Shown here piece after piece: positions 2,239-32,372 of a stretch of DNA of 64,000 nucleotides. How positions within the stretch are numbered: the stretch's first letter is position 1; each line of letters starts with the position of its first letter. Origin of the DNA: Streptomyces diastatochromogenes (lineage in GTDB: Bacteria > Actinomycetota > Actinomycetes > Streptomycetales > Streptomycetaceae). Where the stretch lies: NCBI GenBank assembly GCA_026913215.1, contig JAPTYK010000007.1, forward strand, positions 248,001 through 312,000. Reading direction: 5' to 3'. Both the position numbers and the translations under genes were made by a program. The notes under the pieces are model-generated. The model did no database searches and was not told the origin of the DNA. It saw nothing but the letters and a program-made list of their open reading frames with translations.

Positions 2239-2278
2239 TTCGCGGGAACGGGACTGTGGCCGCTCCGCTTCCTACCTT
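2239..2278 (+). promoter_or_regulatory. Shared bipartite promoter, copy 1
   Basis: TTCGC at 2239 and TACCTT at 2273 (start-to-start 34 nt), 37 nt before the ATG of the 2315 gene. It is one of 19 matching sites in the window, described in the findings. Confidence 0.7.
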
Positions 2279-2314
2279 CTGGGTCGTCAGCAATCGAACG
2301 ACCCAGGAGCAGCG

Positions 2315-2680
2315 ATGACCACCGCGTACACCGAGACGATCAGGGAGACCACCCCGGCAGGCCACCAGCGTGCCGTCGCGTTCGCACTGTCGCAGCTCCT
2401 CACCGAGTTCCCGGAGCTGCCGACGCCGCACTGGTCGATCCCGATCCCGCAGCCGGAGGACGACCGGGCGCTGTACGGGTACCTCCAGCGTGAACACGAG
2501 ACGCTGGAGGCGTTCCAGGCGTACGTGAAGGCGCTGGGCGGCGAGGTCACGAGTTGTGCCCCGGTGGAGATGTACGGACGCCTCGTGCGCACGCACACCG
2601 TGGTCGCGCAGTGGAAGGGCGTCCGGGTGGACGTCACCGTCACTCTGCCCGCCAGCATCGACGTGCAGGCAGCGCTGTGA
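2315..2680 (+). CDS. Hypothetical protein, first gene of a coupled pair
   Basis: A 121-residue protein with no family I recognise. It begins MTTAYTETIRE, is predicted mostly helical in its first half, and ends with strands (HTVVAQWKGVRVDVTVTLP). There is no signal peptide, membrane segment or Cys cluster. It is driven by the shared bipartite promoter at 2239-2278 and overlaps the next gene's GTG start by 4 nt (GTGA), so the two are translationally coupled. Third codon positions are strongly G/C, supporting this frame. Confidence 0.75.
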   Translation: MTTAYTETIRETTPAGHQRAVAFALSQLLTEFPELPTPHWSIPIPQPEDDRALYGYLQREHETLEAFQAYVKALGGEVTSCAPVEMYGRLVRTHTVVAQWKGVRVDVTVTLPASIDVQAAL

Positions 2681-2976
2681 CGGCCACCGTAGGCGCCGAC
2701 CACCGGCTGCGGCTGGACGTCGGCGCGCTCGCACTCGGCCCCAACGACGTGCACGCGCTGCTCTGCTACGCCTACGGCGGCCACACGAATTCCCTGCCCG
2801 TCGACCTGACCCAGGAGCAGATCGAAGGTGCCATCCGGGCTGTCGTGATCATGTACGGCCTGACCGGCGCTCTGCGCTGGGAGTCTGGAGTCGAACCCCA
2901 TCAGGCTGCCCAGGTCTCCTCGTGGGCCTGGCGCTTGATCGAGCGCCGGTTCCCCACGCTGATCTTCACGACCTGA
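2677..2976 (+). CDS. Hypothetical protein, coupled to the preceding gene
   Basis: The GTG at 2677 overlaps the upstream stop (GTGA), which fixes the start. The product is 99 residues, with a short strand-rich N-terminus (DHRLRLDVGALAL) and a helical C-terminal half (EQIEGAIRAVVIMYG, SSWAWRLIERRF). No domain is recognised. Its tight coupling suggests that the two products act together. A strong terminator follows at 3054. Confidence 0.72.
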   Translation: MTATVGADHRLRLDVGALALGPNDVHALLCYAYGGHTNSLPVDLTQEQIEGAIRAVVIMYGLTGALRWESGVEPHQAAQVSSWAWRLIERRFPTLIFTT

Positions 2977-3053
2977 CCTCCTGACCAGCCGCGCCCTGCA
3001 TCCCCCTGCGGGCGCGGCACCGCCGACCGGCCTCCCCCTCAGCCGGTCGATGA

Positions 3054-3096
3054 CTGCCGCCCCGCACCGTGACCCCCTCACGGTGCGGGGCGGCAG
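3054..3096 (+). terminator. 17-bp perfect hairpin terminator
   Basis: CTGCCGCCCCGCACCGT pairs with its exact complement at 3080-3096 across a 9-nt loop, 78 nt after the stop of the coupled pair. Confidence 0.75.
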
Positions 3097-3216
3097 GTCG
3101 TTCGGGCGCTCGACCGTGGCCTCCATCGTGAGCCCTGCTGTCCGCACCGTCCGAAGACCGTACGGAGCCGGCGTCTGGGTCTTGCTGCTCGCCGCCGGCC
3201 GCGCCTCATAAGGCAA

Positions 3217-3257
3217 CTCGCCACTTCTGGGGAGGGCACCGACGCGGTGCTTACCTG
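3217..3257 (+). promoter_or_regulatory. Shared bipartite promoter, copy 2 (CTCGC variant)
   Basis: CTCGC at 3217 and TACCTG at 3252 (35 nt), upstream of the 3343 gene. The first base of the upstream box differs from the TTCGC consensus. Confidence 0.5.
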
Positions 3258-3342
3258 TCACCGCGACAGGCCAGCGACGACGGTGAACCTGCCGCTGTCT
3301 CCTCGCACACCGCCCCGCACCAAGGACTCCAGGAGCCCACCC

Positions 3343-3906
3343 ATGGCCAGCGTCAACGAAACCGTTCGTCAACTGATAGAGCGCTACCCCTGCGGCTACC
3401 CGCACCGCACGGAAGCTCTGCATCAGATCCTTGTAGTGCTCGGCGCCGGGTACGAGTGGCGTGATGGCCAAGTCGTCAGCCGGTTTCTCCCCGACGATGA
3501 CACGTGCGCCCGCATGCACCGGGGCTTCCAGTACTCGGCTGAGCGGGTAGCCGAGTTGACGGAGTTCGGCATCGAGGTGAGGGAACAGTTCATCACCGGG
3601 CAGTGCCCGAACGAGGACCTCCGCAGCCGAGCAGACGAGCTGGCCCAGAAGACGGGGAAGCTGCTGCACGGCCCGTACCAGCCGCATCCGACTCTGCTCT
3701 TCCTGGACGTTCCGGCAAATGCCAATGCGGACTGGGCCGCTGCTGCGGCAGAGATCGCAGCGGTGGTTGGCCCTCTGTGGGCTGCCGGAGCTGACCTGGA
3801 GCTGGACCCGTACGAGCGGACGGATTATGTCTTGAAGGAGAGGGACAAAGCTCTCCGTCGCCTGGAGGCGGTCTACGGTCCCGATGTCATCAACGCCGTC
3901 TCGTAG
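3343..3906 (+). CDS. Hypothetical soluble protein
   Basis: The ATG at 3343 is chosen over the upstream GTG at 3247 because AGGAG sits 8 nt before it and the upstream frame covers the promoter. The product is 187 residues and mostly helical, with one compact hydrophobic strand (PTLLFLDVP) followed by an Ala-rich helix (DWAAAAAEIAAVVG). It has no Cys cluster, signal peptide or membrane helix. I do not recognise the family. It is a single-gene unit between the promoter at 3217 and a hairpin at 3927-3970. Confidence 0.7.
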   Translation: MASVNETVRQLIERYPCGYPHRTEALHQILVVLGAGYEWRDGQVVSRFLPDDDTCARMHRGFQYSAERVAELTEFGIEVREQFITGQCPNEDLRSRADELAQKTGKLLHGPYQPHPTLLFLDVPANANADWAAAAAEIAAVVGPLWAAGADLELDPYERTDYVLKERDKALRRLEAVYGPDVINAVS

Positions 3907-3926
3907 ACGCGTGGTTGGCCGCAGGT

Positions 3927-3970
3927 GAGTGGCGGGCCCCCGGATCCCACGGATCTCGGACCCGCCACTC
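3927..3970 (+). terminator. Probable terminator hairpin
   Basis: GAGTGGCGGG and CCCGCCACTC form a 10-bp stem 21 nt after the stop of the 3343 gene. The remaining gene-free sequence to 4331 holds only the next promoter. Confidence 0.45.
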
Positions 3971-4234
3971 AGCCGTTGCGCGCCTGCCGTCAACGCAGGG
4001 ATTGGCAGCGGCGGTCCGGGCGCCTTGGGGCCCTCTTGGCGTGCAGCGATCTGCGAGTAGTGCTCAGAGCCACCGGTCACGCAGCGTGCGGGGTCTGTCC
4101 GGCCCTGGATGTGCTGGACGAGGCGAAACGGGGGCCGGCGGAGAGCGCGTAGCCCCGGTGGCTCAGCTGCGGGCGTCAGTCACGCTACCCAGCGATCAGC
4201 TAAGGGGGAGCTGTGACCAGGCAGTGGTAGAGGA

Positions 4235-4275
4235 TTCGCCGCAAGTGCTGACTTGCGGCCGGCCGCTTCTAGCTT
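4235..4275 (+). promoter_or_regulatory. Shared bipartite promoter, copy 3
   Basis: TTCGC at 4235 (within GGATTCGCC) and TAGCTT at 4270 (35 nt), 57 nt before the GTG start of the 4332 gene. Confidence 0.65.
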
Positions 4276-4331
4276 TCGGGACGTCAGGCCACGGCGACCG
4301 GTCCGTGGCCCCGTTCGAAGGAGTACTGCGC

Positions 4332-5195
4332 GTGCAGAGTCTGCTGAACGATCCGGCATACGGGCACAAGCTGCGTCAGGCGTACGGCGAGGTCAGCCGG
4401 GTCTCTTCCCGTCTGTGGCTGGACCTGTGGCCCGGCGATTCCGTGCCGCGAGACACGCCTCAGAGTCGGATCATGCTCGGTGCCGTGCCGGAGGAAGAGG
4501 TCCGCATTCCGGCAGTCTCCGAGACCACTGACGTGAAGGCCGACGACCTCGTGGTCGTCATCGATACGGCGGGGTCCTCCCACGCCGCCTACGACATCCT
4601 GGGAGTCCTCACCGGCCGAGAAGTGATGGGCCTTGATCACGTCACCCTCAAGGTGGCGCGGGTCGTTTCCACCGCAGCCAAGACCATCTCCGTCGTCACG
4701 GTCCCGACGCCCGCCGATGGCTGGGAGTGTGACCTGACCAACTTCGCTGACCGGGCCTACGACTCCGTCCCCACGACGCTCACGCTGAAGACCAAGACCC
4801 GTCGTATCGGCCGTCTCGGGACCGTGGAGGAGCTCCGGCAGCGGATCAGGGAGCATGCTCTGTTCGACGAGTGGAAGCAGGAGTACGAGAACGCCAAGGA
4901 CGTCCAGCGGGGTGCGCAGGAAGCGGCCCTGAAGCAGCAGGCCGACGAAGCGCGACGGCAGGAGGCGCTCCTGAAGATCGGTCACATCGTCAACCGGGCC
5001 CTCGGCTTTGACCTGTTCTGCCTGAACACCCAGGGGCAGGTCGTGTTCTCGTACTACAACCACTTCCTGCAGGACGCGGCTAACCTGCGCGTGCATATGG
5101 CGGGACTGCACGCGCTGGGCAAGTTCACCGACGACGAGTACGACCTCGTTCGAGACCAGCTGGCCATTGCCGGCCTGCTTCCCGCGCGGCAGTAA
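4332..5195 (+). CDS. Paralogous family member A (coiled-coil protein)
   Basis: The GTG at 4332 with GAAGGAG upstream gives 287 residues. Order of parts: a helical start containing LWLDLWP, a strand-rich core (ADDLVVVIDT, VARVVSTAAKTISVVTV), the landmark RRIGRLG followed by LRQRIREHALFDEWKQEY, a charged coiled coil, and a C-terminal helical segment (LRVHMAGLHALGKFTDDEYD). The same order and landmarks recur in the genes at 6000 and 10950, so this is a local three-member family. The function is unknown, and no catalytic motif is obvious. All three carry the shared bipartite promoter. Confidence 0.8.
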   Translation: MQSLLNDPAYGHKLRQAYGEVSRVSSRLWLDLWPGDSVPRDTPQSRIMLGAVPEEEVRIPAVSETTDVKADDLVVVIDTAGSSHAAYDILGVLTGREVMGLDHVTLKVARVVSTAAKTISVVTVPTPADGWECDLTNFADRAYDSVPTTLTLKTKTRRIGRLGTVEELRQRIREHALFDEWKQEYENAKDVQRGAQEAALKQQADEARRQEALLKIGHIVNRALGFDLFCLNTQGQVVFSYYNHFLQDAANLRVHMAGLHALGKFTDDEYDLVRDQLAIAGLLPARQ

Positions 5196-5213
5196 CAGCA
5201 CCAACCCCTCTCA

Positions 5214-5254
5214 GCGGCTCCACCGGCCTGGTTCCAACGGTCCGGTGGAGCCGC
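5214..5254 (+). terminator. Terminator with T-run
   Basis: A 13-bp stem (GCGGCTCCACCGG and its complement) followed by CTTTTG, 19 nt after the preceding stop. Confidence 0.8.
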
Positions 5255-5382
5255 TTTTGTGACCTGCACCGGGGACCACCGGTGCGTACTTCAGGTGACC
5301 GGCGCTGTCCACGCCGGCAGCACCGCGGTGCTGCCGGCCGGCTGCCGGGAGTGGATACGAGCCGATCACCTAGTCGGGCAGA

Positions 5383-5422
5383 TTCGCGAGAGCTGGGGTC
5401 GTGCGTCCCGCAGGGCTACCTT
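5383..5422 (+). promoter_or_regulatory. Shared bipartite promoter, copy 4
   Basis: TTCGCGAG at 5383 and TACCTT at 5417 (34 nt). It is a strong match but precedes only two doubtful small frames (5500 and 5612), so its target is uncertain. Confidence 0.65.
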
Positions 5423-5499
5423 CACTCCTGTTGGGCCGCCCGGACGGACCGGGCGGGGCAGATCCCAGCACATCCTCCTGGTCCTCTTCCGCCCGGATA

Positions 5500-5612
5500 T
5501 GAACCAGGCCCCGAACGCGGCGGTGCGAACCAGCCAGCGTGCGCCCTCCCCCCGGCGCCGCTCGGTCCTTCGCACCGCCGCTCCGACGTTCCTGCCGCCC
5601 GGGCCTACGTGA
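5500..5612 (+). CDS. Possible small basic protein
   Basis: A 37-residue frame starting MNQAPNAAV and ending in a Pro-rich tail. Support is contextual only: it is the first ATG after the strong bipartite promoter at 5383, and its stop overlaps the ATG of the following frame (TGATG). There is no clear ribosome-binding site and the sequence is Arg-rich, so it could be spurious. Confidence 0.25.
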
Positions 5613-5878
5613 TGCGAACGTCGACGGTCGGATCTTCCAGGGACGTGCGGCCGTGTTCGCCGGCCGCGGCCGGGATCCTCGATCCCTCGAGCTACCTCAG
5701 GTGGGCAAGCCTGTTGCTGGACGTACAGCTAGGTGCCGCACGACGCGTCGACGGCCGCGGGAGACCTCAGGCTCCACCTCGTACAGAGGAAACCGCCAGT
5801 TCAGAGGCCCTGCACCACCTTGCTCGAAACCCCTGGTCATACGGCTTCCGAGGCTCGAACGCCCCACTTCTACGGTGA
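5612..5878 (+). CDS. Possible small protein coupled to the 5500 frame
   Basis: An 88-residue frame beginning at the TGATG overlap. It contains a plausible hydrophobic helix (LRWASLLLDVQL), but G/C at third positions falls in its second half, so coding is uncertain. It lies in the 745-bp stretch between the terminator at 5214-5254 and the gene at 6000, which otherwise holds only two copies of the shared promoter. Confidence 0.25.
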   Translation: MRTSTVGSSRDVRPCSPAAAGILDPSSYLRWASLLLDVQLGAARRVDGRGRPQAPPRTEETASSEALHHLARNPWSYGFRGSNAPLLR

Positions 5879-5909
5879 CGAAGCCGCCTCCGCCCGTGCC
5901 CGACAAGGG

Positions 5910-5950
5910 TTCGCGCGACCTGCGGCCTTCCCGGCCGACGTACCTACCTT
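5910..5950 (+). promoter_or_regulatory. Shared bipartite promoter, copy 5
   Basis: TTCGC at 5910 and TACCTT at 5945 (35 nt), 50 nt before the ATG of the 6000 gene. Confidence 0.65.
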
Positions 5951-5999
5951 CCACCTCGTCACGGCGCCTACCGAGGCGCTCCGAACCGGAAGGAACCCC

Positions 6000-6800
6000 A
6001 TGAACGTCCCCAACTCCGCTCGCGTCAAGGCTGGTCAGCTCGCTTCGCAGATCGTCAGCGAGCTGTGGCCGCACGCCGATGACCTCAAGCCCACGTGGGC
6101 CCGACGTCACCCGGACGACAGGCCTCTGCAGAAGGACCGGCTCTCCCAGGTCGCCTCGGCATCCGACGTAGAGGTCGATGACCTGGTGCTGATCTACGAC
6201 GAGACCAGCCGTACTCTGTTCGACCTCCTGGGGATGTGGACCGCTCGTGAGGCCGTCTTCTGCCGGGAAGCTGTCATAGCCCGGGTGACGTCCAAGACAG
6301 CACGCACGCTGACCGTCGTCGAGTGCACCAAGCCCACGGGCTACTGGAGTTCGTGCGTCATCTCCCGCTTCGGCACGCCCCGCAAGGACGCAGCCGAGCG
6401 GACGCTGAGGCTGAACACCACCCGTCGGCAGATCGGGCGCCTGGGCGCGGTGACCGACCTGCGAGAGCGCATCGCCGAGCACCCGCAGTTCGAGCAGTGG
6501 AAGGCTTCCCACGCCGCCGCCAAGATTGAAGCGGACGAGGAGAGGGCGGCCTGGAAAGCAGAGCACGAGCGGCGTGCGGAGCAGGTGCGCCCGCAGCGTG
6601 AAGCGGTCCGCACCCTGAACGAGGCTGCCGGTGAGGAACTGGTCGGATGGTACGAGCCTTGGGGAGGCCCCAAGGTCAACGAATGGTTCGCCGGTGAAGG
6701 GCGCTTGAGGACGTACCTGGCAGGCCTGAACGCCATCGGGACTATGGCGGACGACGTGTATGCCGAGGCTCTTCTCCATGTTGAGGTCCTCGGCTACTGA
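6000..6800 (+). CDS. Paralogous family member B (coiled-coil protein)
   Basis: The ATG at 6000 has GGAAGGAA upstream; product 266 residues. It matches the 4332 and 10950 proteins in order of features: SELWP near the N-terminus, a strand core (VDDLVLIYDE, VIARVTSKTARTLTVVE), the RRQIGRLG landmark with LRERIAEHPQFEQWK, a Glu/Ala/Arg-rich coiled coil, and GRLRTYLAGLNAIGTMADD near the C-terminus. The function is unknown. The conserved tail suggests a structural or protein-binding role rather than an enzyme. It is separately transcribed from its own bipartite promoter. Confidence 0.8.
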   Translation: MNVPNSARVKAGQLASQIVSELWPHADDLKPTWARRHPDDRPLQKDRLSQVASASDVEVDDLVLIYDETSRTLFDLLGMWTAREAVFCREAVIARVTSKTARTLTVVECTKPTGYWSSCVISRFGTPRKDAAERTLRLNTTRRQIGRLGAVTDLRERIAEHPQFEQWKASHAAAKIEADEERAAWKAEHERRAEQVRPQREAVRTLNEAAGEELVGWYEPWGGPKVNEWFAGEGRLRTYLAGLNAIGTMADDVYAEALLHVEVLGY

Positions 6801-7119
6801 GCCAAGACGGTCAGAGGGTGACCGCAGTGCGCAGCAGCTTGGATCTACGGGCTGCGCGCGCTGCGGTCAACGGGCGTCCGGTACGTTCACCCGGACGCGC
6901 CGGACGCCGGCGGGCAAGCGGCGCCCACTGGAAGACGGCGGGCGTTACCGTACCCGCAGGCAGTTCAACGCCTGCCTGGCACACCCGTCAGCGCCCATGC
7001 CGTCCGGGATGCAGCCGCAAGGAGTTCCGGCCCGGCCGGGGACGTCACTGACCCAGCGTTGACCTCGTTGGATCGACTCTGCCTTCGTCGGCGGCATGGG
7101 AGCCGGGAAAGCCAAGGAC
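6801..7119. other. Gene-free stretch with degenerate zinc-finger-like coding
   Basis: No gene can be supported. Two overlapping plus frames carry pieces of a Cys motif (CARCGQ in one, CRPGCSRKEF in another), which may be the remains of a small zinc-finger gene broken by an indel. No promoter copy or terminator was seen. Confidence 0.3.
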
Positions 7120-7635
7120 ATGCCCCAGCGCAACCGCAAGGTCCAAAGGGCCGCGCGGCAGCAACTCGTGAACGGCCAAGGCCTCTCCTACACCGATGCA
7201 CGCGCTCAAGTTCGGCGCGGCACGAGAGTGACCAGGTTGGCCCCGGCCAGGACCATGCTCGCCGATGGCGTGTGGTCGCGGTACGGCCGCTGGATTCACG
7301 GCACCGAGGACTGGACCCAGTGGCGCTTCCGCTGCGGGACGTGCGGCCACGTCCAGTCCCCGGCTGACAACGCCCACGACGGTGAGCTCTGCCCTGAGGC
7401 GGCGATGTGGCAGTGCGCGGCCGGCCAGACGCCGGCCTGTCCACCCGCTGGTGAGAGCCCCGAGTACTACCAGGTGTTCGGCTATCACGGCCATGGCCGT
7501 GTGTTCCTCTTCGACTTCGCGGGGGACCGTCTGGAGCACCCGCCGCTGACGGACGCAGACGACGAGATCGTCGAAGTGCCGGGAGTGACGGCACCGGCGC
7601 GCGGATCGAGCTCGTGGGAGAGCCGCGCGCGGTAA
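7120..7635 (+). CDS. Hypothetical protein with CxxC zinc-ribbon-like centre
   Basis: The ATG at 7120 is preferred to the one at 7096 because the product then starts MPQRNRKVQRAARQ, a basic helix, with GGGAAAG upstream. The protein has 171 residues: a basic N-terminal third, then FRCGTCGHVQSP with further Cys residues downstream (CPEA, CAAG, CPP), suggesting a zinc ribbon, and an acidic strand-rich C-terminus (RVFLFDFAGD). DNA or RNA binding is plausible from the basic region plus zinc site, but the family is not recognised. A palindromic terminator follows directly. Confidence 0.65.
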   Translation: MPQRNRKVQRAARQQLVNGQGLSYTDARAQVRRGTRVTRLAPARTMLADGVWSRYGRWIHGTEDWTQWRFRCGTCGHVQSPADNAHDGELCPEAAMWQCAAGQTPACPPAGESPEYYQVFGYHGHGRVFLFDFAGDRLEHPPLTDADDEIVEVPGVTAPARGSSSWESRAR

Positions 7636-7652
7636 CCGACCTTCCCCAGACC

Positions 7653-7680
7653 GAGGGTGCGCCGAGCTCGGCGCACCCTC
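7653..7680 (+). terminator. 28-bp palindromic terminator
   Basis: A complete palindrome (GAGGGTGCGCCGAG and its complement) followed by TCTTGC, 18 nt after the preceding stop. Confidence 0.75.
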
Positions 7681-7783
7681 TCTTGCTGTCCTCCTTACCG
7701 CGGCGTGCCGCCCCGCGGTGGCCATGTGCCACCTGGTATCCGGCGTGCGTGGGCCGGCGGCTCTCGCGTAGTGGTGAGCAGGA

Positions 7784-7823
7784 TTCGCCAGCAGTCGGCC
7801 GGGCGCTGCCGCACATCTACCTT
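7784..7823 (+). promoter_or_regulatory. Shared bipartite promoter, copy 6
   Basis: TTCGCC at 7784 and TACCTT at 7818 (34 nt), 39 nt before the ATG of the 7862 mini-gene. Confidence 0.65.
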
Positions 7824-7861
7824 CAGCACCGCACCCGCCCCCATCACTGGAATCGAGTCCG

Positions 7862-7996
7862 ATGCTGCCGAAGCTCTACGAGCCCCACGAGCCCTACGAC
7901 GACGAGGAGCCGTGCGAGGACTGCCAGGCGCCGGTGGGGATGCCGTGCACCCCGACCTGCCCCAACGGGATGAGCCCGTACGAGCGTCCCTACTAG
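7862..7996 (+). CDS. 44-residue Cys-rich zinc-finger-like protein
   Basis: The product starts MLPKLYEPHEPYDD and carries CEDCQAPVGMPCTPTCPNG, a CxxC pair followed by two spaced Cys. This resembles the small Cys-x2-Cys...Cys zinc motifs common in Streptomyces accessory proteins. The mini-gene is the first after a strong bipartite promoter and lies 19 nt before the HAD-like gene, so the two are probably co-transcribed. The zinc site is inferred from Cys spacing. No start other than 7862 fits. Confidence 0.6.
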   Translation: MLPKLYEPHEPYDDEEPCEDCQAPVGMPCTPTCPNGMSPYERPY

Positions 7997-8015
7997 CCGC
8001 GCCCACGGAGCGATC

Positions 8016-8579
8016 GTGTCCCGACCTCTGCTTTTCATCGACATCGATGGAGTTTTGAACCCATTCAAATCTGGCCCCGCCTCTGAGGACCACGGGTTCG
8101 TACGTCACTACCTGCGCCCCACCTGCTGGATCGACCAGCACCCGCACCTGCGCCCCCGCGACGTCCCCCACGTACCGGTGTGGCTGCACCCGGACCACGG
8201 AGAGGAACTCCTCGACCTTCCGTATGAGCTGATCTGGGCCACAACATGGGAGGACGAGGCGAACACGTACGTCAGCCCGCGAATCGGCCTGCCCGAGCTA
8301 CCCGTCGTCACCTGGAGCACCCGAGGCGGGTACGGCCCGGACGGCACATACTTCAAGACCGCCGACGTCATCCGTCACGCCGCTGGCCGCCCGTTCGTCT
8401 GGCTCGATGACCAGCTCAGCGCAGCCGACCGAGCCTACGTCCAGCAGCACCACACCGGGGCGGCGCTGCTGTACGACATCGACCCCGCCGTCGGACTGGA
8501 CCTGGACGACTTCGAGGCGCTCGCCCAGTGGGCCGACACGCTGACCGAGCCCACCGCACAGACCGGGGCAGTCCGATGA
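8016..8579 (+). CDS. HAD-superfamily phosphatase-like protein
   Basis: The GTG at 8016 with GGAG upstream gives 187 residues. Motif I is LLFIDIDGVLNPF (D9, D11), the signature of HAD phosphatases and close to the HAD domain of bacterial RNA-repair (SAK-type) proteins. A hydrophobic strand before WATTWED fits motif II, and FVWLDDQ near residue 130 fits the acidic motif IV. Members remove phosphate from nucleic-acid ends or small molecules; the substrate here is unknown. It is likely co-transcribed with the Cys-rich mini-gene at 7862. Confidence 0.75.
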   Translation: MSRPLLFIDIDGVLNPFKSGPASEDHGFVRHYLRPTCWIDQHPHLRPRDVPHVPVWLHPDHGEELLDLPYELIWATTWEDEANTYVSPRIGLPELPVVTWSTRGGYGPDGTYFKTADVIRHAAGRPFVWLDDQLSAADRAYVQQHHTGAALLYDIDPAVGLDLDDFEALAQWADTLTEPTAQTGAVR

Positions 8580-8665
8580 GCCGCTGGCGCTACCGACGGC
8601 TACCGCGCGACGCCTTATGACGGCGGTCGACCCCGGAGCAGATGTCCGCCAACGGCAACGCCCTT

Positions 8666-8696
8666 GGCCCAGGCCGCGACGATCGCGGCCTGGGCC
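8666..8696 (+). terminator. 14-bp perfect hairpin terminator
   Basis: GGCCCAGGCCGCGA and its complement around a CGA loop, 87 nt after the HAD-like gene. Confidence 0.65.
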
Positions 8697-8816
8697 GGAG
8701 TACGCCGGGCACATGGAGCACGTTCCCACGTCTCTCGGGAGATGGGATCGATGCCTCCCGCGCACCTAACTTCCGCCGTGCCAGTCACCACGAACTGAAC
8801 GCACGAGGAGATCGGG

Positions 8817-25921: not shown

Positions 25922-25962
25922 CCCCCGCTGTTTCCCGACCGAACGGCCTGGCCGAGGGAGAG

Positions 25963-26295
25963 ATGTTGCAGGTCACCGCTACAGTCACGATGACCGATGT
26001 CACGCGGTACATGATCGTTTCCGGCGCTCCCGCGTACGTGGTGATGGACGGCGCCGACGTGGCGTACATCCTCGACCCGGAGGCGGTGGTCATCGAGTAC
26101 CGCAAACGGCCGGACGAGGCGGCCTACACGCCGTTCAAGGCCACCGTGACCGGCTATCGCCTCGGCCCGGAAGGCCGCATCGGTGACGAGCGGGCCTCCG
26201 GCTGGCAGATGCTGGGAACCTCTGAACCCGACGAGACTCCGCAGTGGCTGCGAGACCTGGCAGAGCGGCACAGGCCCAGGAACAGCGACCTCTAG
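25963..26295 (+). CDS. Hypothetical strand-rich protein
   Basis: The ATG at 25963 follows GAGGGAG; product 110 residues. The first 75 residues alternate short strands (MLQVTATVTMTDVTRYMIV, AYVVMDGADVAYIL, AVVIEYRK, KATVTGYRLG), suggesting a small beta-barrel or sandwich, and the C-terminus is a helix (TPQWLRDLAERHRP). No known domain. It has no promoter copy of its own and sits just after a strong terminator, so its transcription is unclear. Confidence 0.68.
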   Translation: MLQVTATVTMTDVTRYMIVSGAPAYVVMDGADVAYILDPEAVVIEYRKRPDEAAYTPFKATVTGYRLGPEGRIGDERASGWQMLGTSEPDETPQWLRDLAERHRPRNSDL

Positions 26296-26326
26296 ACGTG
26301 GGAAGGCCGCATGGCACCGCTCGGCG

Positions 26327-26647
26327 TCAGTCCGCCCACACGATGCGGAGGATGATCACGAAACGCTGCTTGGCCTGCGCATTCCGCTCCGGATCATGGA
26401 CCTGGTAGGGGATCACCAAGGAGCCCTCCGCCGCCACCCGGTCCCACTCAGGCCGGCTTGGTGAACGAGTCGACCCTGCCTTATACGGATCGGCGATGAT
26501 CCGTCGGATCATCGCGTCGACGGCATCCTGCGGCGTCGGGGCAGCCGGGTGACTGGTCAGCTCCTCGTACTGGGCGCGGGCCTGCTTGGACGGGGCCCAC
26601 GGCCACGTTCCCGGCGGCTGTGAAGAACGGCCGTCGTTCTCGCTCAC
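26327..26647 (-). CDS. Toxin-like protein of a candidate TA pair
   Basis: The GTG at 26647 overlaps the stop of the upstream gene (GTGA), fixing the start; product 106 residues. It has TWPWAPSKQARAQYEEL, DAVDAMIRRIIADPY, and a strand-rich end (SLVIPYQVHDPER, RFVIILRIVWAD). The short helix-helix-sheet outline and the coupling to a small acidic upstream protein resemble RelE/ParE-type toxins of type II systems, but no diagnostic catalytic residue was identified. It is on the opposite strand to its neighbours and probably forms an independent operon. Confidence 0.5.
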   Translation of the reverse strand: MSENDGRSSQPPGTWPWAPSKQARAQYEELTSHPAAPTPQDAVDAMIRRIIADPYKAGSTRSPSRPEWDRVAAEGSLVIPYQVHDPERNAQAKQRFVIILRIVWAD

Positions 26648-26914
26648 TGGCCACTCGCCAGCGACCACGGCTCCGCGAGGTCCAGGTCGCCAGCCATGCC
26701 GGCGTCGCTGTCCGAATCCAGCTGCGCATCACGAGCGGTCACCGCCCGAGCCCACCACTTGTCCCTGAAGGCAGCGACGCGCGTGAGGTCCTCCAGGTCG
26801 AGGCCGTCGCGTTCGGTCTCGAACGCCGCCACCTGGTCGGCAGGCAGAGCCTCCGGATTCCGCGCAGCGTCTTGCGGGGTGCCGCGGTGCCGGCTCTACA
26901 GGCTGCGCAGTCAT
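26644..26914 (-). pseudogene. Antitoxin-like gene with a frameshift near 26880
   Basis: An ATG at 26914 with GGAGGG upstream starts MTAQPVEPAPR, then the frame becomes Cys/Arg-rich. Removing one base in the GGGGTGCCG region (about 26877-26885) joins it to TPQDAARNPEALPADQVAAF and on through FRDKWWARAVTARDAQL, a small acidic helical protein ending at 26644 with GTGA overlap into the toxin-like gene. Without the correction only the GTG at 26832 would be usable, and it lacks a ribosome-binding site. Role as antitoxin is inferred from order, size, charge and coupling. Confidence 0.45.
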
Positions 26915-27027
26915 GGAGACCCTCCTTGTCCGGGCGGTGGATCGGTTCGCTCCCCGCCAGCAGGCGCGCCTTCGAGGATATGGCCCGCTGGCCCACCCCT
27001 TCCAGCGAACGCCACCAGCCGCCCGAA

Positions 27028-27068
27028 TTCGCCAGCTTTCCGAGGATGCGCCCTCTGACGTCTAGCTT
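27028..27068 (+). promoter_or_regulatory. Shared bipartite promoter, copy 16
   Basis: TTCGCC at 27028 and TAGCTT at 27063 (35 nt), 54 nt before the ATG of the 27122 gene and divergent from the TA-like operon. Confidence 0.6.
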
Positions 27069-27121
27069 CGGTGGCGTCAACCCCGACCAGCCCCACCGAC
27101 CACCAGGAGCACGCCACCCGC

Positions 27122-27370
27122 ATGACCCTCACGATCTACGCCCCCGCCCTCCCCTGCGGCCGGTTTCCCGCTCAGTGCACGAACGACGGCACCACCGAGC
27201 ACGCCGCCCACGACTGGAATCTTCCCGGTGCCACCCACGCCGGGTGGCACTGCTACGGCTACAGCACTACCCCCAGCGGCACTCGTGTCGGCTGGGCCGG
27301 CGGCACCGAGGAACCCGGCGACGCCATGGACCTTTGCCAGAACAACCCCGCCACGCCTGCCGCCAGCTGA
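27122..27370 (+). CDS. Small hypothetical protein
   Basis: The ATG at 27122 follows CCAGGAGC; product 82 residues. It holds four Cys (PCGRFPAQC, WHCYGY, DLCQ) and several His, and its second half is Gly/Thr-rich. A structural metal site is possible. No known domain. It is first in a likely two-gene operon with the 27400 gene, under promoter copy 16. Confidence 0.65.
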   Translation: MTLTIYAPALPCGRFPAQCTNDGTTEHAAHDWNLPGATHAGWHCYGYSTTPSGTRVGWAGGTEEPGDAMDLCQNNPATPAAS

Positions 27371-27399
27371 CGCGGGAGCCCACTACGGGAAGGGAGCTC

Positions 27400-27636
27400 A
27401 TGAACGCACTGACCGGCGACGCCCTCCTCGTCCTCGCCTCTGCCACCCATGTCACCGAGCTGGAAGACACCTCCGCGCAGGACGCGTACATCCAAGACCG
27501 CCTTGGTCTGCCGACCGCCACGTACTGGAGCGTCCTCCAGGACGTGCTGGACGACCCTTCGGCCACGCACCATGCCCCGGCAACGATCACAGCCCTGCGG
27601 GAACGGCACGGACGACACGCGTACCCCACCCCGTGA
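27400..27636 (+). CDS. DUF3263-like helical protein
   Basis: The ATG at 27400 follows GGGAAGGGAG. The 78-residue product carries DAYIQDRLGLPTATYWSVLQ, which matches the actinobacterial DUF3263 pattern (acidic helix, I-x-x-R-x-G-(M/L)-x-x-x-x-Y-(W/Y)-x-x-L), a helix-turn-helix-like motif of unknown role. The C-terminus (ITALRERHGRHAYPTP) is basic. It follows the 27122 gene by 29 nt, so it is probably co-transcribed. DNA binding is plausible but inferred. Confidence 0.65.
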   Translation: MNALTGDALLVLASATHVTELEDTSAQDAYIQDRLGLPTATYWSVLQDVLDDPSATHHAPATITALRERHGRHAYPTP

Positions 27637-27637
27637 C

Positions 27638-27683
27638 GACCGTGCTGGTCGTCTGCCTCGCGAAGCAGACCACCAGCACGGTC
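27638..27683 (+). terminator. Two-tier hairpin terminator
   Basis: Outer stem GACCGTGCTGGT with its complement and inner stem GTCTGC/GCAGAC, beginning 1 nt after the stop of the 27400 gene. Confidence 0.75.
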
Positions 27684-27760
27684 CGCCGCTGCTGACCGGT
27701 TCGCTTCGCAGCATGTCGCTGAGGCACCAGGCAGGACCCCGCCGACCGGAGCGTCCCTGA

Positions 27761-27801
27761 TTCGCGTGGGGGCGCTCCCTGAAAGCGGCTGCTCCTAACC
27801 T
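27761..27801 (+). promoter_or_regulatory. Shared bipartite promoter, copy 17
   Basis: TTCGCG at 27761 and TAACCT at 27796 (35 nt), 40 nt before the start of the 27841 gene. Confidence 0.6.
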
Positions 27802-27840
27802 CGCCGACGTCCGTTTGCCCAGAGGGAAAGGCCTTCTCGG

Positions 27841-28104
27841 TTGAACACCATCACCTCCGCAGCATCCTCTGCCGATCCCGTCACTGTCCGCCTCATCCAC
27901 GCCTCAGGGCAGTGGAGCTTGGAGATCTACGACGATCAGCGCACCCGCTTCCCCGTCCGCAGCAGGGACGAGGCTTCGCCCGAGCCACCGACCGACACGG
28001 CAGCGACGCTGCTGCTGAACACACACAGCGTGCTGGTCCCCGACGGCGCCGTCTGGGCGCACCGGGCACCAGGCATCTTGGAGGTCCGCGCGCGCCGGAT
28101 CTGA
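27841..28104 (+). CDS. Small hypothetical protein with TTG start
   Basis: The only start that fits the AGAGGGAAAGG ribosome-binding site is TTG at 27841; product 87 residues. Strands (VTVRLIHASGQWSLEIYD) are followed by a Pro/Glu-rich loop and further strands (SVLVPDGAVWAHRAPGIL). No known domain or metal site. It is transcribed alone between promoter copy 17 and the 28115 hairpin. Confidence 0.65.
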   Translation: MNTITSAASSADPVTVRLIHASGQWSLEIYDDQRTRFPVRSRDEASPEPPTDTAATLLLNTHSVLVPDGAVWAHRAPGILEVRARRI

Positions 28105-28114
28105 AGCGAGCCCG

Positions 28115-28149
28115 CCCAGGGAGCCCTGGCAGAAGCCGGGCTCCCTGGG
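28115..28149 (+). terminator. 12-bp hairpin terminator
   Basis: CCCAGGGAGCCC and its complement; the flanking GCGAG/CTCGC can extend the stem. It starts 11 nt after the preceding stop. Confidence 0.7.
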
Positions 28150-28263
28150 CTCGCAGGTGCTGCCCGTTTCGCCGACCGCGGCACCTGTCCGGGCCTTCCC
28201 CAAGCTGAAGGAGCGGGCGGCACCCGGGCCCTATGCGGATCCGCCTGCCCGTGCGGCGCCGGA

Positions 28264-28303
28264 TTCGCCGCAGCTGCCACCGCAGGGTGCCCTCTGGTCA
28301 GCT
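28264..28303 (+). promoter_or_regulatory. Degenerate bipartite promoter upstream of 28346
   Basis: TTCGCC at 28264 with TCAGCT at 28298 (34 nt). The -10 lacks the A of TANNNT, so this is a weaker relative of the shared element. Confidence 0.4.
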
Positions 28304-28345
28304 CTGGCCACAGAACAGCCCTCCCCGCATCGGAAGAAGCCTTCG

Positions 28346-29512
28346 ATGAGTACAGCCGCACCAGCAGCCGTCCCGCCCATGCCCGCATCAGTCACGCCGG
28401 CTGCCGAGCTCGACGACACGTCCATCACGGACGAGATCGCTGCTCTCCTCCAGTGGGACCGACGGCACCTCCTGGCCACCGGTGAAGGACCCCACATACC
28501 CCGCGGTGAACCGAGCCGCATCGCCGTCTGCGCTCTCGTCGGTCGCCTCAGGGAGCTCGAGCGAGTTCGGAAGCAGCGCGCGGACGACGCCGCGCGGACG
28601 GCGTTCCAGAACCAGGAGATCCAGCGCAAGGCTGACAACCAGGCCCGTGCGAAGTTCGGGCCGCTCATCCGCAGCAGCAACGGCTCCTACACGTACGTGG
28701 TATCAGCGGACGGCCTCGGTGAGCTCGGCACCGTCAGCCGACGCGGCGGCGGCAGAAAGTGGCAGTACCAGCGGGCGGGCACCGGTTCTTCCGGCCCGGA
28801 GTACGACACACGCCGCGAAGCCGCCGGAGACCTCGTGTGGCTCGGAGACCTTGCCGCTGAATCCGCGGCACGTCAGCAACAGCAGGACGCCGCCCGCACT
28901 GCAGTGCCCGACGGATGGACATGGGGCGACTGGGACGATCTCGGCGAGGACGACACCATCCGTACCCCGATGTACGGCCGGGCCGAAGACGGAACGCTGT
29001 ACCCGCGAGCGTGGCGCCCGGCCGCGGAGGTGCTGGCCGTTGCCCGGCTGGGCAACGGCTGCGTGGTCGTATCCCTGGCCGGCCCCGGGGGCTCGTACGC
29101 CGATCCGCTGTTCGTCAGCAGCCAGGACATGAAGGACGTCGGATTCCTCTGGCCCACCGGCCGGGTGCGGCCGACGCCGCGGCCTTACCGCCACAAGCTC
29201 CGGATCCGGATGGCCGACATCGCCGACGACATCGCGACTGTCCAGCGCCGGCTCGGCCCTACGCCCGAGATTCGGAGCCTGGTGGAGTTGGTCGGCCGGC
29301 TGGAGCGGGCACGGACGCCCGACCTTTTCGCCGACCTTCGGCGGGTGGAGGCGGGCACTGCGAAGCTCCGGGCACAGGTCAGCGACCACGAACAGTCCTA
29401 CGAGGTCCAAAGGATCAAGAGCTGGGCGGTAGCCGCCCACATCAAGGCTCAACAGGCCCTCGCAGCGTTCTCCGCAGACCCGGACTTTGCATCGGCGGTG
29501 CCGACCGCCTGA
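28346..29512 (+). CDS. Hypothetical coiled-coil-containing protein
   Basis: The ATG at 28346 follows CGGAAGAAG; product 388 residues. Helical N-terminal half (RLRELERVRKQRADDAAR, QNQEIQRKADNQARAKFG), then a strand-rich centre (SYTYVVSADGLGELG, NGCVVVSLAGPGGSY, ADPLFVSSQDMKDVGF), then a helical C-terminal third (ADIADDIATVQRRLG, LVELVGRLERARTPDLFAD). No catalytic motif was found and the family is unknown. An earlier start at 28157 would run through the promoter and is rejected. The 29541 gene follows by 28 nt and is likely co-transcribed. Confidence 0.7.
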   Translation: MSTAAPAAVPPMPASVTPAAELDDTSITDEIAALLQWDRRHLLATGEGPHIPRGEPSRIAVCALVGRLRELERVRKQRADDAARTAFQNQEIQRKADNQARAKFGPLIRSSNGSYTYVVSADGLGELGTVSRRGGGRKWQYQRAGTGSSGPEYDTRREAAGDLVWLGDLAAESAARQQQQDAARTAVPDGWTWGDWDDLGEDDTIRTPMYGRAEDGTLYPRAWRPAAEVLAVARLGNGCVVVSLAGPGGSYADPLFVSSQDMKDVGFLWPTGRVRPTPRPYRHKLRIRMADIADDIATVQRRLGPTPEIRSLVELVGRLERARTPDLFADLRRVEAGTAKLRAQVSDHEQSYEVQRIKSWAVAAHIKAQQALAAFSADPDFASAVPTA

Positions 29513-29540
29513 CTGCCGGAATCCCCGAAAGGTGACTTTC

Positions 29541-29831
29541 ATGCGCTCGAAGCTCGGGCTTCTCCTCGCTCTCGGCCTCCTGGCCATCGCCTTCCCCAAC
29601 GCGACGATGCTGCTCTTCGAGACTCTGTGCATGATCGTCAGTGCTGTGATGATCACGGTCGCGTGGGTGACCGCACACCTGTCGCTCGTGTGCTTCGTCG
29701 GCTCCGTGAGCGTGCTCCTCTACTTCTTCCCCGGCACCTTCCGGCGGGCCGCCCAGTGGCTGGGACGAGCCCTGGCCGATGCCGTGCGCACCGTGTTTCC
29801 CCAGCAGACGCAGAGCCCCACCGCCCGATGA
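29541..29831 (+). CDS. Small membrane protein, paralog of the 25595 product
   Basis: The ATG at 29541 follows GAAAGGTGAC; product 96 residues. Its layout matches the 25595 protein: basic start (MRSKL), long hydrophobic span (GLLLALGLLAIAFPNATML, LFETLCMIVSAVMITVAWV), second span (LVCFVGSVSVLLYFFP), and an amphipathic C-terminal helix with RRAAQWLGRALADAVRTVFP, close to the paralog's RATRWLARAIADSVAAVMP. The role is unknown. Two copies within 4 kb indicate duplication within this block. Confidence 0.75.
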   Translation: MRSKLGLLLALGLLAIAFPNATMLLFETLCMIVSAVMITVAWVTAHLSLVCFVGSVSVLLYFFPGTFRRAAQWLGRALADAVRTVFPQQTQSPTAR

Positions 29832-29893
29832 AGAGGCCGCGCGGCCGTCGCACTGACGGCCGCGCGGCTGCCGACGCCAGAAAGCCCTCTACC

Positions 29894-30538
29894 GTGAGCA
29901 CCGACCACCCACCCCGACAGACGCTCAAGTCCGCCGCGCTCGCGGCTGCCGCCCGAGGCTGGCGGGTATTCCCACTCCGGCCCGGCACCACCACGCCCGC
30001 TGTCCAGAACTGGCAGCAGAAGGCGACCTCCGACACCCACAAGATCAACGCTGCCTGGGACCACGGGCCGTACAACGTCGGACTCGCTCCCTGCCCGTCC
30101 GGCCTCCTCGTCCTCGACCTGGTGCCGGCCAACGGGGAACTCCCGCCGCTGCGTCACCGCTCCCCGGGTATCCAGGACGGCGCGGACATCCTGGCCGACC
30201 TGACCGACAAAGAGGGAGCGCGGTTCCCCGTCGAGACGTTCTCGGTACTCACGCCCGGACGCGGCCTCCAGCTGTACTTCACCCATCCCCACGGCCGCTG
30301 CCCCCAAGCCAGCCTGGGAGCAGACAGCCCGCTGGGCTGGCACGTCGCGATCCGGTCGGCGGACTCGTTCGTTCCTCTGCCGGTCAGCACCACCGCCGAA
30401 GGCGCCTACGAGATCGCCCATCCCGGGCGGGTCAGTGCCTGGCCCGACTACCTGACCCGGAAACTCCCCACCGCTGCCTCGTCCCGTACGTGCCCCGGAC
30501 GAGCCGCCACGCAGCAGGAAGCTCTACCTATCGGCTGA
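29894..30538 (+). CDS. Small Prim-Pol-like protein, probably catalytically altered
   Basis: The GTG at 29894 gives 214 residues. The start matches the N-terminal domain of bifunctional DNA primase/polymerases: AALAAAARGWRVFPLRPG, then NVGLAPCPSGLLVLDL. The family's metal-binding D-x-D, normally in this last strand, reads DLV (D75, V77), and the later GxD-x-R/PPS block reads GWHVAIRS...LPVS. Activity is therefore doubtful. No helicase or Rep domain is attached. It may be a regulator or a decayed replication accessory. It follows the membrane gene with a 62-nt gap. Confidence 0.65.
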   Translation: MSTDHPPRQTLKSAALAAAARGWRVFPLRPGTTTPAVQNWQQKATSDTHKINAAWDHGPYNVGLAPCPSGLLVLDLVPANGELPPLRHRSPGIQDGADILADLTDKEGARFPVETFSVLTPGRGLQLYFTHPHGRCPQASLGADSPLGWHVAIRSADSFVPLPVSTTAEGAYEIAHPGRVSAWPDYLTRKLPTAASSRTCPGRAATQQEALPIG

Positions 30539-30562
30539 TCAGGCACATCCTCCGGTCTCCCC

Positions 30563-30588
30563 GGCCCCGGCAGGTGTCTGCCGGGGCC
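30563..30588 (+). terminator. 11-bp hairpin terminator with CTTCTT tail
   Basis: GGCCCCGGCAG and its complement with loop GTGT, then CTTCTTG, after the Prim-Pol-like gene. Confidence 0.8.
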
Positions 30589-30706
30589 CTTCTTGTGCCT
30601 ACAGCCACCTGAGCCGCCCTGTCCGGCGTCCCACCCGTGAGCGCACACCGCTATGGCGGCCCAACGGGCTGGTTACGACCGCCTCCTGGCCTGTCGGGCA
30701 GTCAAA

Positions 30707-30747
30707 TTCGCCGGACCTCTCGACCTCGCCGGCGCTCTGCGTAGCTT
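30707..30747 (+). promoter_or_regulatory. Shared bipartite promoter, copy 18
   Basis: TTCGCC at 30707 and TAGCTT at 30742 (35 nt), 46 nt before the ATG of the 30793 gene. Confidence 0.65.
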
Positions 30748-30792
30748 CCGGTCGGCACCCCGCGACCCACCCCGACAGAGAAGGCGACCGCC

Positions 30793-31335
30793 ATGGACAC
30801 CGACCCGGCAGCAGACGACCACCACGCGGAGACCCGGCAGGCGCTGCGCCGGTGCGGAGACGCCATCGGACTCGAGGCAGCCCGCCAGAACCTTCCGGCA
30901 GACCTGTACGTCGCCTTGTTCGGACGCATGCAGGAAGGGCTGCTGCGCGGCATGGTCCACCAGCTCGGAGACGGCGAGCACACCCTCAAGGTCTTCACCG
31001 ACCTCCCGGGCGACACCCTCGTCATCACCGCACCGACACCCGATCACGACCGTCATCTCGGCCCGGACCTGGCCCGCGCGGCGTTCCTCCTCCTCGCAGC
31101 CCACGGCCCGAGCCACTCGGCAGGCATCACCGCCTGCACCGTCCACGCGGACGGACACAGCACCCTCCAGGGATGGGTCGTCCTGGACGGCGTCCCGAAG
31201 CCGCTGTCGGCCGACGTACTGCAGACCCTGTGCTCCGTGGGAGGGCAGCTCACCGAAGGCTCGGCGACCGGCGGCCGGATCGACTACGTCAACGCCTTCA
31301 CGCCGGTCCCCCTGCCCGCAAAGAAGGGGGCCTGA
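30793..31335 (+). CDS. Hypothetical protein
   Basis: The ATG at 30793 follows GAAGGCGACC; product 180 residues. It is mostly helical (ETRQALRRCGDAIGLEAARQ, RMQEGLLRGMVHQL) with strands in the middle (EHTLKVFTDL, DTLVITAPTPD, GITACTVHADG). No recognised domain. It is followed directly by the Cys-rich mini-gene (1-nt gap) and then the zinc-finger-like 31493 gene, so these form a three-gene operon under promoter copy 18. Confidence 0.72.
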   Translation: MDTDPAADDHHAETRQALRRCGDAIGLEAARQNLPADLYVALFGRMQEGLLRGMVHQLGDGEHTLKVFTDLPGDTLVITAPTPDHDRHLGPDLARAAFLLLAAHGPSHSAGITACTVHADGHSTLQGWVVLDGVPKPLSADVLQTLCSVGGQLTEGSATGGRIDYVNAFTPVPLPAKKGA

Positions 31336-31491
31336 GTGCCTCCCTGCGGCTTCACCCCGCATTGCGGCGACTGCGGGGAAACCGACATCACCCTCAACAG
31401 CAATGGCAGGACGACCTGCTGCGACGCCCCCATATGCGAAGGCGCCTCTGACGCCGCCTACCGCAACGACCGGACCACAAGGAAGAACTGA
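31336..31491 (+). CDS. 51-residue Cys-rich protein
   Basis: A GTG start directly after the preceding TGA. The product begins VPPCGFTPHCGDCGETDITL and later has TTCCDAPICEG, seven Cys in 34 residues with CxxC spacing, a zinc-finger-like arrangement. The last residues are polar (AYRNDRTTRKN). Its stop lies 1 nt before the ATG of the 31493 gene. Its size and position between two coupled genes argue for a real gene. Confidence 0.55.
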   Translation: MPPCGFTPHCGDCGETDITLNSNGRTTCCDAPICEGASDAAYRNDRTTRKN

Positions 31492-31492
31492 C

Positions 31493-32311
31493 ATGCCCGC
31501 CCGCTCCAACGACAACGGCAGGTGCACGGAGCCGCGAAGTGTTCACGCTCCCACGCTCACAGCCGACGCCCGGCTTCTCGTGAAGGGCCGTCACCGCGCC
31601 GGCATCAAGCCCGTGCACGCCGACGGAGAGCCTTGTCCTCACCGGAAGGGCGAGGACTGCCCCGGACGTGAGTACCGGGCCCAGTGCAAGAACGCGGGAT
31701 GCCACTTCGACAAGCAGTTGGATGCCCGCGTCCAGCTCGAGTTCGTGCGTGACACCAGCGCCTGCCCGACGCTCCCCTCCTTGGCTGACACGGACGCCGC
31801 CGGCGCCGCGAACGAAGAGGACGGCGCAGAACCGGTCGACGAGAAGCCACAGCAGGCGGCGCCACAACTTCCGCTGCAACCGCAGATCCGTAAGACCGGG
31901 CCCGCATCCCAGCCCTACCGACTCACCTGCCCCGAGCAGGGCTGTGGCCGTCTTGGTGACTACGCCACCCGGCGGATGGCATCGGATGCCTTCGGAGAGC
32001 ACGTCGACCTCGTACATCCTGCACTCACCCCGCTGGACCTGATCCGCAGCGTCGTACAGCTTGAGGGAGACGGCGACGGCCGGTGGACTGTGGGCGACCT
32101 GTCCGGTCACCGCTATACGGTGCGGCGCATCGGCGAGAACACCTTCCGGGTCGACGTGGACGGTCGGGCGGTCACCGTCGTGGACCCCCTGGCGACCCTG
32201 GAGCGGGCCCGGCTCTGTATCGCTCAGCTCGCCCGAATCGTCCACGGCCCCCGAGCGGAAGCCGCCCGCATCCAGCTTCTGCGTGAGGAAAGGGCAGCGG
32301 CGCCCAGTTAG
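31493..32311 (+). CDS. Hypothetical protein with two Cys/His clusters
   Basis: The ATG at 31493 gives 272 residues. Cluster one is CPHRKGEDCPGREYRAQC with a further Cys and His (NAGCHFD). Cluster two is CPEQGCGRLGDY followed by H-x5-H (EHVDLVH), which looks like a C2H2-type zinc finger. Between them is a Pro/Gln-rich linker. The C-terminus is a beta-rich domain (RWTVGDLSGHRYTVRRIG, TFRVDVDGRAVTVVDP) and a helix. A nucleic-acid-binding role is plausible. It ends the operon begun at 30793. Confidence 0.68.
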   Translation: MPARSNDNGRCTEPRSVHAPTLTADARLLVKGRHRAGIKPVHADGEPCPHRKGEDCPGREYRAQCKNAGCHFDKQLDARVQLEFVRDTSACPTLPSLADTDAAGAANEEDGAEPVDEKPQQAAPQLPLQPQIRKTGPASQPYRLTCPEQGCGRLGDYATRRMASDAFGEHVDLVHPALTPLDLIRSVVQLEGDGDGRWTVGDLSGHRYTVRRIGENTFRVDVDGRAVTVVDPLATLERARLCIAQLARIVHGPRAEAARIQLLREERAAAPS

Positions 32312-32331
32312 CAGCAGCCGGCTGCTCGGGA

Positions 32332-32372
32332 TTCGCGCGCGCTCTGTAGGCACCCAGCCTCCGGCATACGTT
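32332..32372 (+). promoter_or_regulatory. Shared bipartite promoter, copy 19
   Basis: TTCGCGCGCG at 32332 and TACGTT at 32367 (35 nt), 75 nt before the ATG of the 32447 gene. It is the last copy seen in the window. Confidence 0.6.

Follow-up and report, generated by a model that had tools for sequence, protein, structure and literature searches.

A repeated two-box promoter ahead of a block of small genes on a Streptomyces plasmid: a candidate establishment regulon whose promoter code may differ between lineages

Why should a run of mostly short genes carry one and the same promoter, again and again, along a single strand? The question is raised by the 64-kb window analysed here (positions 248,001 to 312,000 of the 375,324-nt Streptomyces contig JAPTYK010000007.1), in which a sequence-only reading had listed 19 copies of a bipartite promoter, a TTCGC box followed after 29-30 nt by a TANNNT -10 box, and had proposed an activator site and a plasmid early-entry or transfer regulon. 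The explanation that we favour, with a probability of roughly 0.5, is a plasmid-specific establishment or counter-defence regulon that lies near a conjugation system and is driven by an activator one helical turn above the -35 position. One plasmid-specific promoter, repeated through the block, would place the genes under a single plasmid-coded regulator; this protein would bind the YTCGC box (Y, C or T) and help the main RNA polymerase onto a -10 box of the housekeeping type, and the genes would serve establishment or counter-defence on entry of the plasmid into a new cell.

An exact scan of the window for YTCGC-N29/30-TANNNT gave 18 matches, every one on the plus strand and in the span from 2239 to 32372, so that the proposed wiring of one gene block by a bipartite promoter is borne out (Table 1). 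Of the listed sites only that at 3217 departs from the pattern, reading TTACCT at the -10 place; a twentieth, at 28264, had already been described as degenerate and reads TCAGCT. The three boxes said to begin with CTCGC were found at 3217, 10867 and 11805. On the plus strand of the first 33.5 kb TANNNT followed TTCGC at a gap of 29 nt eight times and of 30 nt eight times, and at no other gap among 5 to 59. These 16 TTCGC sites compare with a mean of 0.68 (standard deviation 0.87, maximum 4) in 100 shuffles scored over gaps of 28-31 on both strands, and the 18 exact sites with a mean of 0.54 (maximum 4) in 300 dinucleotide shuffles of the plus strand of the block. Neither the remainder of the contig nor a 360-kb sample of chromosome contains the TTCGC form. 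The broader YTCGC form occurs three times on the plus and once on the minus strand elsewhere on the contig, and again not at all in the chromosome sample. Start codons, picked by hand from the list of open reading frames (ORFs), lie 36-86 nt past the -10 box at 18 of the 20 sites, close to the 30-85 nt first given; behind the sites at 5383 and 7784 the nearest ORFs are short (37 and 44 amino acids (aa)).

The closest relative among plasmid records is a Streptomyces anulatus plasmid (NZ_CP109401.1), which shares a large part of the genes of the contig. The YTCGC promoter recurs there, on the plus strand only (15 sites in the 50 kb around the block; 20 on the whole plasmid, where some of those outside the block are possibly chance matches), and likewise in a separate S. 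diastatochromogenes contig (L128; five plus and no minus sites in 21 kb). Outside the window the present contig has two CTCGC-type sites, at 204844 and 334038, one of them ahead of the gene for the multi-HTH regulator candidate described below. Each has an equivalent at the corresponding S. anulatus gene, and the regulon may therefore extend past the window.

Pooling the sites of these three replicons gave a set of 44, in which the distance from the start of YTCGC to the start of TANNNT is 34 nt in 24 sites and 35 nt in 20. The -10 box is TANCTT-like and the consensus of the upstream box is (A)YTCGC. As the sequence-only reading had it, the spacer is nearly without conservation (position +11 is G or T in 37 sites), and the upstream box begins about 11 nt, or one helical turn, above the usual start of a -35. 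Neither a conserved -35 nor a downstream partner box was seen in the pooled set. The position of the box one turn over the -35, its near-fixed distance to the -10 and the lack of a conserved -35 together make activator logic the most likely, and since one promoter repeats through the block, one regulator would control it together. An upstream box that replaces the -35 while the -10 is kept is familiar from the middle promoters of phage T4, served by MotA, and from WhiB-like (Wbl) proteins that activate together with sigma, although in these systems both the position and the sequence of the box differ from those of the YTCGC promoter. By analogy with Wbl proteins and class II activators, the geometry would fit an activator seated above the -35 and contacting sigma region 4.

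Comparable arrays are present on other plasmids. Twenty regions were fetched by homology to genes of the block: through the 382-aa protein, L021-L025 (five of 13 plasmid records; G124 is the same plasmid as L025) and G193, G065, G069, G300, G147, G140 and G163 (drawn from 12 other genomes), and, through the 308-aa or 222-aa protein, L099-L106 (eight records). The last four of the G regions hold distant relatives of the 382-aa protein (32-33% identity) and are shorter stretches. A de novo search for 5-mers that recur a fixed distance ahead of TANNNT, in which a score above 20 was called strong, found a strong repeated promoter in 15 of the 20 regions and none in G300, G147, G140, G163 and the Actinacidiphila region L102. 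L021 has the TTCGC type; the other 14 have a different upstream box. The types are ATTGCTTACTTC (L022, L024), RTTGCTTAAnTCTATGA (L023, G065, G069), ATTGCGTAA (G193), GTTGC forms (L025, L099, L101, L106), TATTGAATG (L100), GCGTTATTCATGG (L103) and ATTTGAC (L105). In pFRL6 (L104) near-exact inverted operators, TGACGCTTAAG before and CTTAAGCGTCA after, enclose the core promoter at eight plus-strand and four minus-strand sites (for example 24620, 28184 and 30682). In these other lineages TTGC or TTGA is conserved at the -35 place, with spacers mostly of 17-18 nt; because many of the types have an RTTGC core in common there, they are not all unrelated.

The exact motif is confined to one strand in 10 of the 15 regions, and in the rest the counts on the major and minor strands are 8 and 2 (L023), 9 and 3 (G069), 12 and 4 (G065), 8 and 4 (L104) and 5 and 1 (L105). 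Across seven plasmid regions with gene tables entered by hand (coding fractions 0.61-0.85), 70 of 82 sites are intergenic and no more than 300 nt from a gene on the same strand. In the controls, 18 stretches scanned on both strands (36 scans), there was no result or a score of 10.1 at most, with a single exception of 29.6 (chr5), where five of the seven matches lie inside a 43-bp tandem repeat. The large plasmids NBC_01643 and NBC_01717 reached 10.4 at most. Scored on the opposite strand, the block regions gave values as high as 27.9, in part because the same sites were read in antisense. L102 has a possible weaker repeat, GTTGCGGGTGTTG (for example at 35032 and 37917), ahead of some genes in a block flanked by ParA and a MobF relaxase; in a looser search there GTTGCGG turned up in 14 of the 40 upstream regions, but the 7-mer has 20 plus and 13 minus occurrences in the whole 50 kb.

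Orthologous genes on related plasmids stand behind these different repeated promoters. The gene for the 382-aa protein has the promoter type of its own plasmid within 300 nt upstream at 11 of 14 loci, the window included (the exceptions are L024, L129 and L130); five types occur there, TTCGC and four with the RTTGC core. This count leaves aside the distant relatives in G300, G147, G140, G163 and other genomes. In L128 a copy of the gene (9977-10804) is without its first ~100 residues and has kept the promoter. Seven of 10 loci of the 222-aa gene, again with the window included, show an own-type promoter (L103, L104 and L105 do not), and a gene for a 231-aa protein, which in the window is not directly behind a promoter, has one at all three loci outside it. 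Some genes not placed directly behind a promoter may be inner genes of operons.

The setting of the block is that of a plasmid with transfer genes nearby. In S. anulatus a ParA gene is annotated left of the block, at the place that corresponds to window ORFs 42..1704; these ORFs gave no match in Pfam and none in the S. anulatus stretches searched. Farther left, on the minus strand of that plasmid, are genes with TcpC and AAA_10 matches and a TraG/TraD match below cutoff, and their orthologs lie at 233-244 kb of the present contig. Because these conjugation-like genes lie to the left on the minus strand, the block looks as if it points away from an apparent conjugation system with genes of the type IV secretion system (T4SS) kind. 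Within the block, a divergent pair (17666-19072, minus strand; 19140-21320, plus strand) encodes an AAA_5 ATPase, with a GvpN match below cutoff, and a partner without a known family; their matched parts share 82% and 88% identity with S. anulatus, and no array promoter precedes either gene. Many orthologs appear in the source assembly (completeness 88.96) as neighbouring pieces. Since they are split relative to S. anulatus, the assembly probably contains frameshift errors.

Table 1. Promoters and genes of the block, in window coordinates
Feature	Coordinates	Strand	Remark
ORFs left of block	42..1704	+	guessed by eye: parA end and parB
Gene block	2315..33000	+	mostly short, mostly family-less; some genes without own promoter
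TTCGC-N29-TACCTT	2239..2278	+	before ORF 2315-2680
CTCGC-N29-TTACCT	3217..3256	+	imperfect, not TANNNT; before ORF 3343-3906
ORF 3343-3906	3343..3906	+	resembles LigT below cutoff; related genes on other plasmids
TTCGC-N30-TAGCTT	4235..4275	+	before ORF 4332-5195
TTCGC-N29-TACCTT	5383..5422	+	only 37-aa ORF close behind
TTCGC-N30-TACCTT	5910..5950	+	before ORF 6000-6800
TTCGC-N29-TACCTT	7784..7823	+	before 44-aa ORF 7862-7996, then ORF 8016-8579 (HAD_SAK_2)
TTCGC-N29-TAACTT	9557..9596	+	before ORF 9643-9960
CTCGC-N29-TAACGT	10867..10906	+	before ORF 10950-11705
CTCGC-N30-TAGCTT	11805..11845	+	before ORF 11883-12179
TTCGC-N30-TACGGT	12604..12644	+	before ORF 12683-13609 (308 aa, widely shared)
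TTCGC-N29-TACCGT	13809..13848	+	before ORF 13899-14174
TTCGC-N29-TAACTT	14939..14978	+	before ORF 15037-15705 (222 aa)
TTCGC-N29-TAGCTT	21793..21832	+	before ORF 21896-23044 (382 aa)
382-aa gene	21896..23044	+	relatives in 13 plasmid records; phrog_6160; weak AcrVA2 resemblance
TTCGC-N29-TACCTT	23286..23325	+	before ORF 23408-24850
TTCGC-N30-TACCTT	25005..25045	+	before ORF 25100-25327
TTCGC-N30-TAGCTT	27028..27068	+	before ORF 27122-27370
TTCGC-N30-TAACCT	27761..27801	+	before ORF 27841-28104
TTCGC-N29-TCAGCT	28264..28303	+	imperfect, not TANNNT; before ORF 28346-29512
TTCGC-N30-TAGCTT	30707..30747	+	before ORF 30793-31335
TTCGC-N30-TACGTT	32332..32372	+	before ORF 32447-32719

What the genes do can be approached through their families. 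A Pfam scan of 30 window proteins gave three matches above cutoff: AAA_5 (17666-19072), the RNA-repair-associated domain HAD_SAK_2 (8016-8579; E 4.4e-7) and DUF2637 (33526-35118). Ten proteins were compared with each of three further collections, with two clear matches to PHROGs phage families of unassigned function, one marginal match in PADLOC and none above cutoff in NCBIfam. Annotations in regions of other plasmids include DNA methylases, DprA, a ligase, an RNA ligase, an ADP-ribosylglycohydrolase and, in the Kitasatospora region, an ArdC-like gene. Because methylases, DprA, RNA ligase and ArdC-like genes are carried there, an establishment or counter-defence role appears likely for the block as well. 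The 382-aa protein, common to big Streptomyces plasmids, has a YLCCDNRD motif that is invariant in seven aligned members; it had no match in a phage collection at E <= 1e-5. Its C-terminal ~100 aa alone resemble AcrVA2 weakly (E 0.003; profile 0.016). The structural model gave no backing for an AcrVA2-like fold, being poor (mean pLDDT 48.8) and without a Foldseek match at E <= 0.001.

The best candidate for the regulator is, at the level of a guess, a protein with multiple helix-turn-helix (HTH) repeats, judged by eye and matching no Pfam family above cutoff. Its gene (contig 334055-335575, outside the window) lies behind CTCGC-N29-TAAGCT and carries a YTCGC promoter in all three replicons that have the array; a search for the protein in three genomes that use different promoter types found nothing. 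A second candidate is a WhiB-like protein, possibly with an HTH, which is encoded near FtsK in S. anulatus, is present in S. diastatochromogenes as well and is matched in the present contig by a 74-aa ORF only. Three other genomes were compared: two match it weakly, in the WhiB part only, and the third does not match it. No promoter copy was seen at its gene, and as sole regulator it was set aside and kept as a candidate only. No ribbon-helix-helix (RHH) regulator was identified on this plasmid, none having been searched for by profile. In other lineages some blocks encode tandem XRE, TetR, GntR or DUF3263 proteins as possible regulators; promoter copies of their own stand at TetR genes of L025 and L106 and at a GntR gene of L099.

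How else could such an array be explained? Repression with zygotic induction is possible, if on the doubtful side. YTCGC would then belong to an operator: a resident repressor would silence the promoters in the donor, and they would fire in a repressor-free recipient until repressor had accumulated. The paired operators of pFRL6 speak for this, as does the Reg operator of the Bacillus plasmid p576, whose position, in the passages of PMC8708921 that describe it, is close to that of YTCGC here. However, since the YTCGC lineage has no conserved -35, its promoter would seem weak on its own, a downstream partner box was not seen at the pooled sites, and the very strict spacing suits contact with polymerase. 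A constitutive housekeeping promoter, spread with its genes by duplication and with a box that serves no regulator, is improbable. Its -10 would indeed be of the ordinary type found, but the spacer is unconserved, unlike that of recent copies, orthologous genes in other lineages have other boxes, and the TTCGC form is missing from the rest of the contig and from the chromosome sample. We think it very improbable that an alternative sigma factor uses YTCGC as its -35: the strict two-box layout would suit it, but the -10 is of the housekeeping type, and the gap of 29/30 nt far exceeds any sigma spacing known to us. Single-strand DNA promoters of the Frpo kind, which leading-region plasmid genes elsewhere use according to the relevant passages of PMC11541004, have next to no likelihood, since DNA folding of 18 of the 20 promoter regions gave z-scores of -1.38 to 1.75 and no common fold, and on this ground we rejected them.

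Several findings also weigh against an activator-driven establishment regulon. At least four of the six letters of TTGACA are present in 7 of the 44 pooled sites, against ~3.7 expected at random, and at least three in 27, against ~19; with the best matches slightly above random, the YTCGC promoters may have a weak -35. The activator site first proposed fits the place of the box and the missing -35, but the inverted operators that flank the pFRL6 promoters resemble an arrangement for repression. Own-type promoters are scarce outside the window at some orthologs: 3 of 14 loci for the 308-aa gene (leaving out L102, which has no defined motif), none of seven for a 166-aa gene and one of four for the LigT-like gene. 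Because 27 of the 30 scanned proteins had no Pfam match above cutoff, counter-defence is a thin label; neither ArdC nor a methylase was among those 30, and the AcrVA2 match is weak, with no structure match behind it. The regulator is a guess because the three YTCGC replicons have other genes in common too, and because in NBC_01643 and NBC_01717, which encode multi-HTH relatives, the 50 kb examined contained no repeated promoter. The idea of an early-entry or transfer regulon nevertheless gains from the plasmid setting, the comparable arrays elsewhere and the T4SS-type neighbours, with the timing of expression, like activation, the identity of the regulator and the functions of the genes, being something that we infer.

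Is such a system already known? No regulon of this kind in Streptomyces was among the open-access literature matches listed. Among described systems the establishment regulon of p576 comes nearest in our assessment; this plasmid resembles it in outline without being a member. As the passages of PMC8708921 on p576 and the clade II pLS20 family describe it, the RHH repressor Reg acts on EGeRS2 promoters through a dual heptamer operator, TTATCCCnnTTATCCC, immediately upstream of the -35; two of the four cases have the operator after the start as well. Both plasmids would thus have several promoters with a common regulator box beside the -35 place (here at 18 exact sites). The reg gene is within its own regulon, as the multi-HTH gene would be here if its product is the regulator, and the p576 regulon, too, has a variable gene content in several transcription units (PMC8708921). 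The differences, on the same passages, are considerable: four such regions there and 18-20 here; TTATCCCnnTTATCCC as the box instead of YTCGC; a strong promoter with a -35 instead of none conserved; an RHH regulator instead of a multi-HTH candidate, and here a Streptomyces host; and ardC in the regulon, with none among the 30 window proteins scanned here. EGeRS1 of pLS20 is likewise a repeated region upstream of several establishment operons, but is described in PMC8708921 as a conserved stretch of 400-600 bp that lacks a strong sigma-A promoter, in contrast to two short boxes here. The leading-region anti-defence islands with Frpo promoters, as presented in the passages of PMC11541004, share with the block a run of counter-defence-type genes on one strand; here, however, there is no conserved hairpin and the -10 is of the double-strand type. 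On this comparison the array would differ from the described systems, whose closest kind, the plasmid establishment regulon, is already known.

Taken across the plasmids, we would give even odds to a broader view, in which large Streptomycetaceae plasmids share an unusually big establishment regulon with many small counter-defence genes. Its promoter code would vary by lineage as the orthologous genes persist, each plasmid answering only to its own regulator, and two logics would be in use: an activator box above a missing -35 here, and operators that flank or overlap a full promoter in pFRL6 and others. If this is true, boxes repeated before small genes on the same strand would be a simple way to list the entry genes of a plasmid, and it would become possible to study how the code of an entire promoter set is changed. 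It would also provide many candidate anti-defence genes from antibiotic-producing bacteria, in which most entry genes are unnamed.

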